Below, piece after piece: positions 12,787 through 45,455 of a stretch of 64,000 nucleotides of DNA. Each line of letters opens with the position of its first letter. Position 1 is the stretch's first letter. The notes beneath the pieces were generated by a model, which did no database searches, was not told the origin of the DNA, and saw only the letters and a program-made list of their open reading frames with translations. Made by a program: the position numbers and the translations under genes. The stretch is taken from the NCBI RefSeq assembly GCF_002288225.1, contig NZ_CP016777.1, forward strand, positions 62,001-126,000, in the 5' to 3' direction. The stretch is from Candidatus Planktophila dulcis. GTDB taxonomy: Bacteria; Actinomycetota; Actinomycetes; Nanopelagicales; Nanopelagicaceae.

Positions 12787-13233
12787 ATGTCCGAAATTCT
12801 AGAAAAGCCAGAAGTGCAAAAGATTTATATCGATGCACGTGGTCCACGATTTTCTGCAAGCTTCACGGCAATCTTTCTTGCAACAGCCTTAGTAACTCAT
12901 AACGTCTGGGTTCTTGTTGCTCAAGGGCTTGTCTTTCTTATCGGTGCTACTCGCGGTCCTCAGTTCACTCCCTACGGTTTGCTCTTTAAGAACCTCATCA
13001 AGCCTCGCTTGAAGAAGGAGGCTCCAACGGAGGATGTGCGCCCACCTAAGTTTGCGCAATCTGTTGGATTTGGATTCGCACTTGTTGGAACAATCGGCGC
13101 ATTTGCTGGCGCAGATATCGTCTTCACGGTTGCAACCGCATTCGCACTAGCTGCAGCGTTTCTTAACGCTGCCTTTAATTATTGTTTGGGTTGTGAGATG
13201 TATCTGCTGCTCGTCCGTTTTAGATCTAAATAA
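12787..13233 (+). CDS. DUF4395 membrane protein
   Basis: The 148-residue protein has four hydrophobic stretches (around residues 23-40, 42-55, 90-110 and 115-135), a PRFSA motif near residue 20 and NYCLGCEMYLLL near the C-terminus. These match DUF4395, a family found with thioredoxin and rhodanese genes in actinobacteria. The CLGC cysteine pair could take part in thiol exchange at the membrane; that is inference. It is followed 40 bases later by the sulfurtransferase gene with its own ribosome-binding site. Confidence 0.82.
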   Translation: MSEILEKPEVQKIYIDARGPRFSASFTAIFLATALVTHNVWVLVAQGLVFLIGATRGPQFTPYGLLFKNLIKPRLKKEAPTEDVRPPKFAQSVGFGFALVGTIGAFAGADIVFTVATAFALAAAFLNAAFNYCLGCEMYLLLVRFRSK

Positions 13234-13273
13234 TTAAATACACATTTACCAACTAACCTAATAGGAGAAGAAA

Positions 13274-14107
13274 ATGTCACGTGAAACATCGCTGGTTACC
13301 GCTGATTGGGTAGCTCAAAACTTAAATGACCCAAAGGTTGTTATCGTCGAGGTTGACGAAGATACAACCCTCTACGCACAGGGCCATATTGAAAATGCCA
13401 TTACCTTCCACTGGCGCGAAGATCTACAAGATGGCTTGATCCGCGACCTCATCTCAAAGGAGAAGTTTGAAGCTCTTCTTTCAAAGAGTGGAATCTCAAA
13501 TGATTCAACAGTGATCCTCTATGGAGGTAATAACAACTGGTTTGCTACCTATGCGTTCTGGTACTTCAAGGTCTATGGCCATGCAGATGTTCGCCTTCTT
13601 GATGGTGGTCGTAAGCGCTGGGAGCTCGATGCTCGCCCATTCGTAAGCGAAGTTCCTTCTCGCACACTTACTCACTACGTTGCAAAGGAGCGCGATAACT
13701 CAATCCGCGCATACCGCGATGAAGTGATTGCAGCTATTGGCACAAAGAACATCGTTGATGTGCGCTCACCTGCAGAGTTCTCAGGAGAGCTTGCAGCTCC
13801 TGCTCACCTTCCACAAGAAGGTGGACAGATCAAGGGACATATTCCAACAGCGAAGAACATCCCTTGGTCAAAGGCTGCAAATGAAGATGGGACGTTTAAA
13901 TCAGATGCTGAACTTAAGGAGATCTACCAGAGCGCTGGTGTTGATCTAGCTAAGGACACTATTGCTTACTGCCGTATTGGTGAGCGCTCAGCGTTCTCTT
14001 GGTTTGTGCTTCACGAACTACTAGGTGTTAACAATGTAAAGAACTACGACGGATCATGGACTGAATACGGTTCACTCGTCGGAGTTCCTGTTGCAGTTGG
14101 CGCATAA
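13274..14107 (+). CDS. Thiosulfate sulfurtransferase (two-domain rhodanese, CysA2/SseA type)
   Basis: The 277-residue cytosolic enzyme transfers a sulfane sulfur from thiosulfate to a thiol or cyanide acceptor. It has two rhodanese domains: the N-terminal one (residues 8-125, ending LDGGRKRWE) is non-catalytic; the C-terminal one (150-275) carries the active-site Cys in YCRIGERSAF. GGAG-like purines (AGGAGAAG) precede the ATG. It lies between DUF4395 and DUF1416 genes, the usual actinobacterial neighbourhood. A close paralogue with a signal peptide sits at 43261. Confidence 0.92.
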   Translation: MSRETSLVTADWVAQNLNDPKVVIVEVDEDTTLYAQGHIENAITFHWREDLQDGLIRDLISKEKFEALLSKSGISNDSTVILYGGNNNWFATYAFWYFKVYGHADVRLLDGGRKRWELDARPFVSEVPSRTLTHYVAKERDNSIRAYRDEVIAAIGTKNIVDVRSPAEFSGELAAPAHLPQEGGQIKGHIPTAKNIPWSKAANEDGTFKSDAELKEIYQSAGVDLAKDTIAYCRIGERSAFSWFVLHELLGVNNVKNYDGSWTEYGSLVGVPVAVGA

Positions 14108-14113
14108 CTAACT

Positions 14114-14437
14114 ATGCGTACTTGCGGTGCAACACCTGGTGGACCATCTCTTGATGGCATAGATCTATCTCAGCAGACCGTAATTCAGGGACAAATACTT
14201 CGGGACGGGAGTTCTGATTCAGTGCCCAATGGCACTGCGGTTGCTAATGGACATGTGCGATTACTTGATGCATCAGGTGAATTCACCGCAGAGGTTCCGA
14301 CCAATAGTGATGGTCAGTTCTGTTTCTTCGCAGCTCCTGGTTCCTGGACTCTTGTGGTTCAGGCACCGGGTGCTCGCGTAGAGCAGAAGCTCATTGCCGC
14401 TCGTGGTACGCCTACAGATCTTGTTATCCACATTTGA
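14114..14437 (+). CDS. sseC: DUF1416 (SseC-like) protein
   Basis: The 107-residue protein begins with a short Cys-containing segment (MRTCGATPGGPSL) and continues as a small beta-sandwich (residues 25-107) of the carboxypeptidase-regulatory type, matching DUF1416/SseC. It starts six bases after the sulfurtransferase stop and is almost always found behind such genes, so it is thought to assist sulfur transfer. Its biochemical role is not established. Confidence 0.85.
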   Translation: MRTCGATPGGPSLDGIDLSQQTVIQGQILRDGSSDSVPNGTAVANGHVRLLDASGEFTAEVPTNSDGQFCFFAAPGSWTLVVQAPGARVEQKLIAARGTPTDLVIHI

Positions 14438-41666: not shown

Positions 41667-43028
41667 ATGCGAAATATCGTCTGGTTCCGCCGAGATTTAC
41701 GTATCGGCGATCACCCAGCGCTCATCGCTGCCATGGAAGGCGCCGATGAGATAGTTCCTGTATTTATACTCGATAAGCAGCAGATTTCTGAAGCAGGAAG
41801 CAAACTCCTTGCCTATATGAGCCAATCACTTCGCGCACTCGATGAATCCCTGGGTAACCGCTTACACATCATTGAAGGCGATCAAGTAGAAGTATTGAAA
41901 GAGTTGATTGATCTTTATGATGTGAAAGAAGTTCATATCTCAACTGAGTATGAGCGCTATGGCGCAGAACGCGATGCACGCGTTGAAGCAGCTGGCATTC
42001 CACTTGTTCGCACAGGTTCTCCCTATGCAGTTGCACCGGGTCGAGTTCTCAAACCAAGTGATGCAACGCCATACAAGGTTTACACACCGTTCTATAAAGG
42101 TTGGTGTGCTCACGGTTGGCGTGCTCCTGCTAAGACGCCGAAAGAGATTAAGGCGCCGAAGCCCTCAGATAAATACCGCGCATTTCCTGACTTTCCTGTC
42201 CCTGAGGGAACAACAATTATTGAAGCGGGTGAAGCTGCTGCGCTCAAGCGCTTTAAGGAATTTACTAAGAATGGTCTTGATAGTTATGACGAGAACCGTA
42301 ACTTTGCAGGAATAGATGGCACATCAAAGATGAGTAGTTATCTCAAGTTTGGCGAGATTCACCCGCGCACACTGCTTTTAGGTCTTGGTGAGACCAAGGC
42401 TCATGACACATTCCGCAAGGAGATTGCCTGGCGTGAGTTCTATGCAGATGTTCTCTTTAACAATCCCAATACCGATACTGAGTACTACGCACCGAGATTT
42501 AAAGAGATGCGTTATGACAAGCCAGGTAAGCAATTTCAGGCTTGGTGTGAAGGCAAGACTGGTTATCCATTTGTTGATGCTGCAATGCGTCAATTAGTTA
42601 TTGAAGGATGGATGCATAATCGCACGCGAATGGTTGTTGCATCATTCTTGGTTAAGGACCTCCATCTTGAATGGCAGCTAGGTGAGCGATTCTTTGCAGA
42701 ACACCTGACTGATTACGACCCAGCATCAAATGCCCATGGTTGGCAGTGGACAGCCGGCACTGGCACAGATGCATCTCCGTATTACCGAGTCTTTAATCCC
42801 ATCGAACAAGGGCGACGTTTTGATGAAAATGGCGATTACATCCGCAAATATGTTGCAGAACTGGCCCACTTAAGTGCTGCTGAGATTCATGAGCCTTGGC
42901 TATTCCTCGATGGATATTCACATGGATATCCAGAGCGCATCGTCGATCACGCAGTAGAACGTATTGAATCTCTTGAAAGACTTAAAGAGATTAAGGCTGA
43001 TAAGCCTGAACAACCCATAAAGAAATAA
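41667..43028 (+). CDS. phrB: Deoxyribodipyrimidine photolyase (CPD class I)
   Basis: The 453-residue flavoprotein uses light to split pyrimidine dimers. The N-terminal antenna domain opens VWFRRDLRIGDHPAL; the FAD domain has KMSSYLKFGEIHPRT, WREFYADVLFNNP, DAAMRQLVIEGWMHNRTRMVVASFLVKDL and SNAHGWQWTAGTGTDASPYYRVFNP (last Trp of the electron chain). A photolyase suits a bacterium of sunlit surface water. Confidence 0.95.
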   Translation: MRNIVWFRRDLRIGDHPALIAAMEGADEIVPVFILDKQQISEAGSKLLAYMSQSLRALDESLGNRLHIIEGDQVEVLKELIDLYDVKEVHISTEYERYGAERDARVEAAGIPLVRTGSPYAVAPGRVLKPSDATPYKVYTPFYKGWCAHGWRAPAKTPKEIKAPKPSDKYRAFPDFPVPEGTTIIEAGEAAALKRFKEFTKNGLDSYDENRNFAGIDGTSKMSSYLKFGEIHPRTLLLGLGETKAHDTFRKEIAWREFYADVLFNNPNTDTEYYAPRFKEMRYDKPGKQFQAWCEGKTGYPFVDAAMRQLVIEGWMHNRTRMVVASFLVKDLHLEWQLGERFFAEHLTDYDPASNAHGWQWTAGTGTDASPYYRVFNPIEQGRRFDENGDYIRKYVAELAHLSAAEIHEPWLFLDGYSHGYPERIVDHAVERIESLERLKEIKADKPEQPIKK

Positions 43029-43070
43029 TTGCTAAATACTCATTTTTACTATCTGCAAGTAATTTGCAAT

Positions 43071-43099
43071 TTTACAACTCTGGATTAACTCTCTATCTT
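43071..43099 (+). promoter_or_regulatory. Sigma-70-type promoter of the sulfur operon
   Basis: TTTACA (43071-43076), exactly 17 bases, TATCTT (43094-43099). The expected start near 43106 gives a leader of about 155 bases before the sulfurtransferase, containing the leader peptide ORF. Confidence 0.68.
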
Positions 43100-43134
43100 T
43101 CTCGTAATTAAGAACCTAGCGAGAGGTGGTCACG

Positions 43135-43194
43135 ATGTTCCTTACTAAGCGTCGCGTTATTGACTACTGCCGCATCACAAGCACCAGCTGCTGA
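43135..43194 (+). CDS. Cys-ending leader peptide, putative sulfur attenuator
   Basis: A 19-codon ORF encodes MFLTKRRVIDYCRITSTSC, with GAGAGG eight bases before its ATG. The pattern (L-T-K-R-R-x-[VI]-D, R, S, terminal Cys) is that of the short 'putative leader peptides' found upstream of sulfur-assimilation genes in actinobacteria; cysteine-rich upstream ORFs acting as cysteine-responsive attenuators are known in mycobacteria. Its two Cys codons (12 and 19, the latter just before the stop) could sense charged tRNA-Cys. A pyrimidine run right after the stop (43197-43208) contains TCCTTT, complementary to the AAAGGA ribosome-binding site of the next gene (43250-43255). Confidence 0.72.
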   Translation: MFLTKRRVIDYCRITSTSC

Positions 43195-43260
43195 TCTTTC
43201 CTTTTTTCTCATCCCTGTAACACAATTTTTTAAAACCCAAAAAACTAACAAAGGATAAAA

Positions 43261-44211
43261 ATGTCAATTTCAAGAAAGTTAATCGCAGGAGCAGCAGTTG
43301 CTGGTCTCCTTTCGACGGTCGGAATCGTTCCTGCCGAAGCACGTCCAAAGAATCAGGCTCGCGCAGTTGCACAACCAGATTGGCTTGAGCAGAACATCGA
43401 TAACCCTAAGGTTCGCATCATTGAAGTAAGCACTGAACCTGGTATCTATGAGCGCGGACATATCAAGAACTCAATCAAGTTTGTGTGGCACACAGATCTT
43501 GTTGACACAGTCAACCGCGACATCATCAGCCAGGCTAACTTCACAGCACTTGCCCAGAAGGCTGGCATCAGCGATGACACAACAGTTGTTCTCTACGGAG
43601 ATAAGAACAACTGGTTTGCTGCATGGGGCGCATGGATCTTTAACATCTACGGTCAGAAGGATGTTCGCATTCTTGATGGTGGACGTGTGAAGTGGGAGAA
43701 GGATGGTCGTGCTCTCACAACAGCAGTTCCAACATTTAAGGCTGGTAACTTCAATGCAAATCCAGCTGATAAGAATCTTCGCGCAAACATCATCAAGGAT
43801 GTAATCCCAGCAGCAAAGAAGACAAAGGTTGCAGCACTTGTTGATATCCGTTCAGCTGATGAATTCAGTGGAAAGATCTTTGCACCTGCTGGTTTCCAGG
43901 AGCTTGCAGTGCGCGCAGGACATATCCCAGGAGCGGTCAATATTTCTTGGGGACAGAATGTCAATGCAGATGGAACCTTTAAGACTGTTGCAGAGTTGAA
44001 GAAGCTCTATGCAGATAAGGGCATCACCGGAACAGATCAGATCATTACCTACTGCCGTATTGGTGAGCGTTCATCTCTCACATGGTTCGTGCTCAGTGAA
44101 ATCCTCGGATTCCAGAAGGTAAAGAACTACGACGGTTCATGGACTGAGTACGGAAACACAATCGGTGCACCGATTAGTAATCCTTCAGGCACAATCTGGG
44201 GAGCAGCGTAA
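43261..44211 (+). CDS. Exported thiosulfate sulfurtransferase (two-domain rhodanese)
   Basis: The 316-residue protein starts with a signal peptide (MSISRKLIAGAAVAGLLSTVG, cleavage probably after AEA near residue 27). Two rhodanese domains follow; the second carries the active-site Cys in YCRIGERSSL. It resembles the cytosolic enzyme at 13274 closely, down to the shared VKNYDGSWTEYG end. It is set outside the membrane just ahead of a YeeE/YedE transporter, so it may process or bind thiosulfate before uptake. AAAGGA five bases before the ATG is the ribosome-binding site, which the leader may mask. Confidence 0.9.
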   Translation: MSISRKLIAGAAVAGLLSTVGIVPAEARPKNQARAVAQPDWLEQNIDNPKVRIIEVSTEPGIYERGHIKNSIKFVWHTDLVDTVNRDIISQANFTALAQKAGISDDTTVVLYGDKNNWFAAWGAWIFNIYGQKDVRILDGGRVKWEKDGRALTTAVPTFKAGNFNANPADKNLRANIIKDVIPAAKKTKVAALVDIRSADEFSGKIFAPAGFQELAVRAGHIPGAVNISWGQNVNADGTFKTVAELKKLYADKGITGTDQIITYCRIGERSSLTWFVLSEILGFQKVKNYDGSWTEYGNTIGAPISNPSGTIWGAA

Positions 44212-45455
44212 TTTCCACCCTTCCAACACAGAGCAGCAACCTCGGAGATCCCGGGGTTGCTGCTTCTGCGTGGACGGCTAAAGAGAAGGTTCGCACTGCA
44301 ATCTCCTTTGCAGTGATTGCCGCACTTCTTCTCCTTGCATTTATTCTCTCTTCAAATATATCTAATTCAACAGCGCCAATCTCACTTCTTATCGGTATGA
44401 GCCTTGGCTTATTGCTTGAGCGTGGTCGCTTCTGTTTCTTCTGCATCTTCCGTGATGGCATTGAAGATAAGAACACCACACCATTTCTCTCAGTATTGGT
44501 TGCGATTGCAACAGGATCTATTGGTTACGCACTCATCTTTGGTCAATTCCTTCCTGATACCAGCACCGATCGACTTCCACCGGTGGCACATATCGGACCG
44601 GTGAGCTGGGTCTTAGTAGTTGCAGCCTTTGCCTTTGGAATCGGAATGTCCTTATCTGGAGCCTGCATTAGCGGTCATCTCTATCGTCTTGGTCAGGGAT
44701 ACCTTCGGGCAATTCCCGCACTCATTGGAACATTGATTGGTTTTGTTCTTGCATTCTTATCCTGGAACTGGCTCTATCTCAACGCTATCTCTGATGCACC
44801 AACTATCTGGTTGCCACATTACGTTGGTTACTCAGGTGCTCTACTCATCACCTTATCTGCGCTCCTTCTCCTTGCCTTTATTGCAATTCGTAGAGGCACC
44901 AACTCAGATCCGATTCGCAAGGTGAGCGCTGCACCTCTCTCGCTCTCAGGAACTCTGAAAAATCTGATCACAGAGCGATGGAGCCCTATTGCGACAGGTG
45001 CTATCGCTGGAGTTCTAGGAACCATTGCTTACCTTCGCGTTGAACCACTCGGTGTGACACGTCAGCTCAGCACTACTGCTCGAACATTTATGGATTCCAA
45101 CAAGATTGGACCTGAATCTCTTGTTGGCCTCGATCGCATGGCTGGATGTGTTGCAGTTGTTGCCGAGGCAATTACCAATAATGGCTGGCTTGTTATTGGA
45201 ATTATTGGAACCTCATTTGCCGCTGCCCTTGCTGGGGGACGCTTTAAATTCTCTCGCCTGACTCCTACAAATTCAGCCACAGCACTGATTGGTGGAATCT
45301 TGCTCGGTTGGGGCTCGATGACATCCCTTGGTTGCACAATTGGTGTTCTTCTCTCTGGAACACAAGCATTTGCACTCTCTGGTTGGGTCTTCTTCGCCTT
45401 TGTATTCCTCGGTAGCTTTGTTGGAATCAAATTGAAATTTCACACAACAGGCTGA
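44211..45455 (+). CDS. YeeE/YedE (TsuA-type) thiosulfate/sulfur transporter
   Basis: The membrane protein has about nine or ten helices with the conserved Cys sites of the family: GRFCFFCIFRDG, SLSGACISGHLYRLGQG, and SLGCTIGVLLSG near the end. Proteins of this family import thiosulfate. The frame is open and well coded from the sulfurtransferase stop onward, but the first ATG/GTG/TTG is the GTG at 44313, which would cut into the first helix. I therefore propose initiation at the ATT codon at 44211, overlapping the previous stop, with GGGGAG upstream. If that is wrong the gene is 44313-45455 (380 residues). The end overlaps the convergent GGDEF gene by 16 bases. Confidence 0.8.
   Translation: MSTLPTQSSNLGDPGVAASAWTAKEKVRTAISFAVIAALLLLAFILSSNISNSTAPISLLIGMSLGLLLERGRFCFFCIFRDGIEDKNTTPFLSVLVAIATGSIGYALIFGQFLPDTSTDRLPPVAHIGPVSWVLVVAAFAFGIGMSLSGACISGHLYRLGQGYLRAIPALIGTLIGFVLAFLSWNWLYLNAISDAPTIWLPHYVGYSGALLITLSALLLLAFIAIRRGTNSDPIRKVSAAPLSLSGTLKNLITERWSPIATGAIAGVLGTIAYLRVEPLGVTRQLSTTARTFMDSNKIGPESLVGLDRMAGCVAVVAEAITNNGWLVIGIIGTSFAAALAGGRFKFSRLTPTNSATALIGGILLGWGSMTSLGCTIGVLLSGTQAFALSGWVFFAFVFLGSFVGIKLKFHTTG
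44235..44261 (+). other. Stable hairpin at the sulfurtransferase/YeeE junction
   Basis: A 10-bp stem (44235-44244 with 44252-44261, one G-U pair) with a seven-base loop follows the sulfurtransferase stop by 23 bases. No T tract follows, so it is not a standard terminator. It may stabilise the upstream mRNA or tune transporter output; it may also be only a by-product of coding sequence. Confidence 0.5.

Follow-up and report, generated by a model that had tools for sequence, protein, structure and literature searches.

A translated leader peptide that responds to cysteine through attenuation probably controls a two-gene operon for the uptake of reduced sulfur in Candidatus Planktophila dulcis, an acI bacterium of the Nanopelagicaceae. 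The operon lies within a 64,000-nt stretch of DNA (the window) of the complete 1.35-Mb genome and is also present in Candidatus Planktophila versatilis and Candidatus Planktophila lacus, the closest named complete relatives among those that carry it. A promoter is followed by a leader ORF, a spacer of 66 nt, a gene for a rhodanese that is predicted to be exported and a gene for a transporter of the YeeE/YedE family (Table 1). Relatives of the locus were gathered through the rhodanese within the family Nanopelagicaceae, and they comprise 36 operon relatives with upstream sequence together with two divergent copies (36-38% identity). Several public records titled as a Bifidobacterium breve MAG (L092, L094-L096, L100, L107, L109 and L113) seem to be mislabelled, as their operons are clearly of the Nanopelagicaceae.

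Table 1. Features of the leader-controlled operon (positions in the window)
Feature	Position	Strand	Remarks
Sigma-70-type promoter, TTTACA-17-TATCTT	43071-43099	+	Most relatives share both hexamers and the 17-nt spacing at the equivalent place
Shine-Dalgarno region of the leader (CGAGAGGTGGTCACG)	43120-43134	+	Almost every relative whose 5' UTR measures 34-54 nt has an SD-like motif
Leader ORF, MFLTKRRVIDYCRITSTSC*	43135-43194	+	Sensor codon TGC 43189-43191; stop TGA 43192-43194
Unstructured spacer, candidate Rho loading region	43195-43252	+	15 C and 1 G in 58 nt
Shine-Dalgarno of the rhodanese gene, AAAGGA	43250-43255	+	
Exported (predicted) two-domain rhodanese, CysA2-like	43261-44211	+	PF00581; 3HWI; active-site loop CRIGERSS
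GGGGAG, probable Shine-Dalgarno of the transporter gene	44198-44203	+	Within the 3' end of the rhodanese gene
YeeE/YedE-family transporter, 414 codons	44211-45455	+	PF04143; probable AUU start at 44211-44213

On comparative grounds the leader is a genuine and conserved gene, and a chance ORF is ruled out. The initial annotation of this DNA had described an ORF of 19 residues with a ribosome-binding site (RBS) and with Cys as its last codon, and both points hold, the site being a GAGAGG upstream of the ORF. A leader occupies the matching place in all 39 rhodanese loci with upstream sequence (the window, the 36 relatives and the two divergent copies), and the last Cys, on whose conservation the annotation had staked its proposal, is invariant across the leader-bearing relatives, where it is written as TGC or TGT and is combined with any of the three stop codons. 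The alignment of relatives shows K5, R6, R7, D10 and R13 to be as invariant as C19, and the core KRRxxDxxR.....C, which also characterizes the Ms5788A family of leaders, is found in 34 of 34 distinct cores. Comparison of the leader codons gives differences at 53% of third positions versus about 20% at first and second positions (pS 0.73, pN 0.19, pN/pS 0.26); synonymous codons change freely while residues stay fixed, and selection therefore acts on the peptide. The only Cys residues of the leader in the window are Cys12 and Cys19, with no contiguous run of Cys codons; a few relatives end in CC.

Two other views of the leader can be weighed against this record. A plain codon-supply sensor, in which only the decoding rate of the last Cys codon would count and the rest of the peptide would be irrelevant, is compatible with the invariance of that residue under either Cys codon and with the replacement of the inner Cys12 by Ala in relatives, but it is an improbable explanation given that the five other invariant residues are fixed despite free synonymous change and that the pattern KRR..D..R.....C recurs throughout the class. 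Purifying selection at the level of the peptide might equally be a sign of a conserved small protein with its own function and no regulatory role in cis. This we consider very improbable, because the leader stands directly before sulfur or cysteine genes or DUF4395 operons, with short spacers, in all of the loci examined, because the C-terminal tails past the Cys vary among loci and because the mycobacterial relatives are reported to be attenuators of downstream genes.

The assignment of the ORF to the actinobacterial sulfur leader peptides, made initially from its form, is borne out by the distribution of the leader as well as by its terminal Cys. A leader profile matches 134 of the 197 genomes of the class at E 0.01 (a reversed-profile control matched 0 of 197) and 172 of the 296 genomes of the family. 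Within its own genome the window copy is the sole match (E 5.7e-12), with no second copy found by the profile search at E 10, and a direct DNA pattern search for the leader gave noise only. The window leader matches the NCBIfam model Ms5788A (NF042933) with 22.9 bits (E 5.2e-5), under the cut-off of 45, and NF042934, 'putative leader peptide', with 15.7 bits against a cut-off of 27. Mycobacterial-type copies (MLTKRRAVDLCRVAGSCCCCCSC) found by our profile pass the models, one of them with 45.7 bits to Ms5788A. The window leader has the core and a similar length in common with the members of these two models and, like the Ms5788A family and other members of the class, it lies before an operon with a CysA2-type rhodanese; it differs from Ms5788A in having two separate Cys residues instead of a Cys tract, and in being followed by YeeE and a rhodanese that is exported, not by DUF4395-cysA.

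Elsewhere in the class the leader is followed by DUF4395 and then by a cytosolic CysA2-type rhodanese. In other Nanopelagicaceae, where gene names were assigned by sequence resemblance and not by family search, it precedes DUF4395-cysA, DUF4395-Fur or cysK with a serine acetyltransferase-like gene. The last arrangement (L079, L181 and L186) suggests that several operons of this lineage are under cysteine control. Some of the DUF4395 contexts (L080, L081, L082 and L087) carry a short TTGTT...AACAA inverted repeat right after the leader stop. The window itself contains, at 12787-14437, an operon of DUF4395, a cytosolic cysA-type rhodanese and a small third gene, and the DUF4395-cysA part of it (12787-14107) is without a leader, whereas the copies of relatives carry one. 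Operons of the exported-rhodanese and YeeE type outside the Nanopelagicaceae (L117-L129) are also without a leader. This distribution suggests that the exported-rhodanese operon probably acquired its leader within the acI lineage, and for the same reason an ancestral association of the leader with this operon is unsupported.

The promoter that had been reported upstream of the leader is present, but its sequence taken alone is no better than chance (1 site versus 1.4 expected). In nearly all relatives the matching place carries identical hexamers with the 17-nt spacer. The distance from the end of the -10 box to the leader start is 35 nt in the window, with the Shine-Dalgarno (SD) sequence in between, so that the leaderless transcript typical of polycysteine attenuators is not what is seen here. 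Most other loci have the same layout, with a 5' UTR of 34-54 nt and an SD-like motif. At 15 loci, relatives or divergent copies (L012, L023, L026-L031, L033, L034, L036, L037, L039, L053 and L054), the start codon of the leader follows the end of the -10 box by 6-7 nt and no SD is present, and a leaderless mRNA is therefore to be expected. As judged from their sequences, both layouts place a ribosome on the leader. The mode of initiation thus switches between close relatives while the promoter spacing stays constant at 17 nt.

That the leader senses cysteine is very likely by homology to mycobacterial leaders. Leaders with Cys codons have been tested experimentally in M. smegmatis, where they are reported to attenuate in response to cysteine (PMC9031893, PMC13236596). 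The polycysteine leaderless short ORFs of that species, described by Canestrari et al. 2020 and cited in these two papers, are similar to the window leader in standing before sulfur genes and in their cysteine-dependent decoding, and some acI relatives look leaderless as well; on those accounts, the window leader is set apart by its SD, its single terminal Cys codon and its lack of a conserved RBS pairing. We propose that transcription would begin at the promoter in Table 1 and that ribosomes would then translate the 19 codons of the leader. When Cys-tRNA is plentiful, ribosomes would pass the final Cys codon and be released at the stop, and expression of the operon would stay low; when cysteine is short, a ribosome would pause with the last Cys codon in its A site, and expression would go up. 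A share of the nascent chain in the pause is suggested by the invariant basic and acidic residues, which lie 6-14 positions ahead of the Cys, and the conserved KRRxIDxxR segment in the exit tunnel would probably aid the pause.

The step by which a paused ribosome might raise expression of the operon was initially ascribed to a switch in which a run of pyrimidines past the leader stop holds the RBS of the rhodanese gene in a duplex until a stalled ribosome frees it. UCCUUU (43199-43204) is indeed complementary to AAAGGA, translation attenuation is the mode reported for cysteine genes of M. smegmatis (PMC13236596), and the spacers of L065-L068 show, by eye, a UUCCUG/CAGGAG complementarity. A 6-bp match is, however, no more than chance provides, and the comparative folding proposed as a check speaks against the switch. 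In calculations that rest on energy models and an assumed ribosome footprint, the native 25 nt after the leader stop of the acI relatives pair with the RBS more weakly than their shuffles (-7.6 versus -8.6 kcal/mol, p 0.002) and no better than with the RBS of other relatives; the RBS is more open than it is under shuffled spacers (5.6 versus 6.9 kcal/mol, p 3e-6); a ribosome stalled at the Cys codon changes its opening energy by a mean of only 0.3 kcal/mol; and the region folds like its shuffles (z -0.24). No conserved RBS pairing was found in relatives, nor was the sequestration of the RBS by leader mRNA that marks polycysteine attenuators. These pairing, opening and folding results rule out sequestration as a conserved feature, and we regard it as an unlikely mechanism for the operon. 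An intrinsic terminator is ruled out too, nothing terminator-like being present in 43020-44330, and an Rfam search returned two tRNAs only, with no riboswitch, T-box or other family.

Rho-gated attenuation is the reading that we favour for the output step, with somewhat less than even confidence. The composition of the spacer is unmatched on either strand of the window, its C/G ratio is 3.5 across relatives, and Rho is encoded in the genome, so that the ingredients of a Rho attenuator (a C-rich, G-poor and unstructured RNA after the leader, and Rho itself) are at hand; together with the failure of the RBS switch and the lack of a terminator, it is this combination that leads us to favour Rho. 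The spacer would be exposed as naked RNA when ribosomes leave and would be partly shielded when one stalls. A rut site would usually need more than the 66 nt of this spacer. A 5' UTR poor in G may also be a common trait in acI, as the spacers of other leader-controlled acI genes have a C/G ratio of 2.0; these are often 45-60 nt long, and Rho may thus not serve as a general output. A natural point of comparison is the tna operon of E. coli, in which an arrest leader of the TnaC type, with free tryptophan as its signal, is coupled to Rho-dependent termination. We propose that the window leader resembles TnaC in having conserved residues in the tunnel and in stalling the ribosome where the ORF ends, beside a C-rich, unstructured stretch; the differences are that the signal here would be a lack of Cys-tRNA, that the spacer is short and that the Rho step is only proposed.

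Both genes named initially downstream of the leader are confirmed. The rhodanese is a two-domain protein that matches PF00581, and its N-terminal extension of ~30 residues is, by eye, of the signal-peptide type, an extension that is missing from a cytosolic paralogue with 49% identity; export is thus predicted. Its nearest match is the mycobacterial thiosulfate sulfurtransferase of CysA2 type, 3HWI (E 2.5e-89), with which it has the active-site loop in common. The transporter matches PF04143 (Sulf_transp) over the whole model (E 1.4e-55) and is encoded by the only Sulf_transp gene of the genome. The reported lack of assimilatory sulfate reduction in acI strains (PMC5301498), which the initial annotation had invoked, agrees with our failure to find a gene of the PAPS-reductase family in the genome, while 14 of 14 control genomes matched that family. 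The absence of such a gene and the presence of a single Sulf_transp gene make the operon a good candidate for the uptake of reduced sulfur, probably as a route by which the exported rhodanese and the transporter would provide a cell that lacks sulfate reduction with sulfane sulfur, for which thiosulfate is perhaps the source.

Thiosulfate is perhaps the substrate, as it is for TsuA/YeeE of E. coli, a transporter of the same PF04143 family that takes up thiosulfate together with TsuB (PMC11582611). The partner of the E. coli transporter is a cytosolic TusA-like protein, whereas the partner here is an exported CysA2-like rhodanese, and this difference is one of the grounds for an alternative in which the operon would import a product of the rhodanese, such as sulfane sulfur, or would serve detoxification or selenium chemistry. 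Relatives of YeeE act on various species of sulfur or selenium; the transporter scores 81 and 83 bits against the TsuA equivalogs NF041049 and NF052577, whose cut-offs are 645 and 400; and its best NCBIfam match is YedE/FdhT, far below the cut-off. The match over the entire Sulf_transp model argues for thiosulfate, and a leader that ends in Cys in a genome that lacks the PAPS-reductase family fits sulfur nutrition. We hold the alternative to be less likely than not, though by no means negligible.

The transporter probably begins at AUU 44211, a start suggested by comparison of the loci. The first canonical start in its frame is GTG 44313, and ATT 44211-44213 overlaps the rhodanese stop codon by its final A. 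With the more divergent L042, L043, L053 and L054 (NTGA overlaps) set aside, the frame opens with ATT (31 loci) or ATC (4 loci) in all 35 readable Nanopelagicaceae loci (the window and L008-L041). GGGG before this position is kept in all operon relatives, length differences 3' of it are whole codons, and outside the family three Acidimicrobiia-like relatives have an ATG at the exactly equivalent place (TAATG in L117, TGATG in L119 and L120). L028 has no ATG, GTG or TTG until codon 136 of the frame. The simplest reading appears to be an AUU/AUC start used by ribosomes that terminate on the rhodanese. A frameshift fusion of the two genes is unlikely, since in L026-L028 a stop codon closes the transporter frame 4-7 bases ahead of the rhodanese stop. 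Codons 2-22 of the transporter show no purifying selection (pN/pS 0.98), and the variable 5' part of the gene contains a perfect 10-bp inverted repeat, AGCAGCAACC/GGTTGCTGCT, at 44232-44264.

Taken jointly, these elements would describe a class-wide KRRxIDxxR arrest peptide with a hypersensitive single Cys codon placed exactly six residues after the last Arg, whose effect is read out in acI by Rho and not by RBS sequestration, before a transporter with an AUU/AUC start that is reached only by ribosomes finishing the rhodanese; we put forward this complete picture tentatively, as one that is rather unlikely to hold in every part. Leaders that respond to cysteine are a known kind, and what is new is a variant, without a Cys tract or conserved RBS pairing, that stands before an exported rhodanese and YeeE. 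It links the control studied experimentally in mycobacteria to a peptide found throughout the class, in which selection acts on the residues and not only on the Cys codons. For the cell, the leader would tie an operon for sulfur import to the state of its cysteine supply. In many lakes no other bacteria are as abundant as the acI Actinobacteria, which reportedly lack assimilatory sulfate reduction, so that the way in which they ration reduced sulfur bears on sulfur cycling in fresh water and on the cultivation of acI strains.
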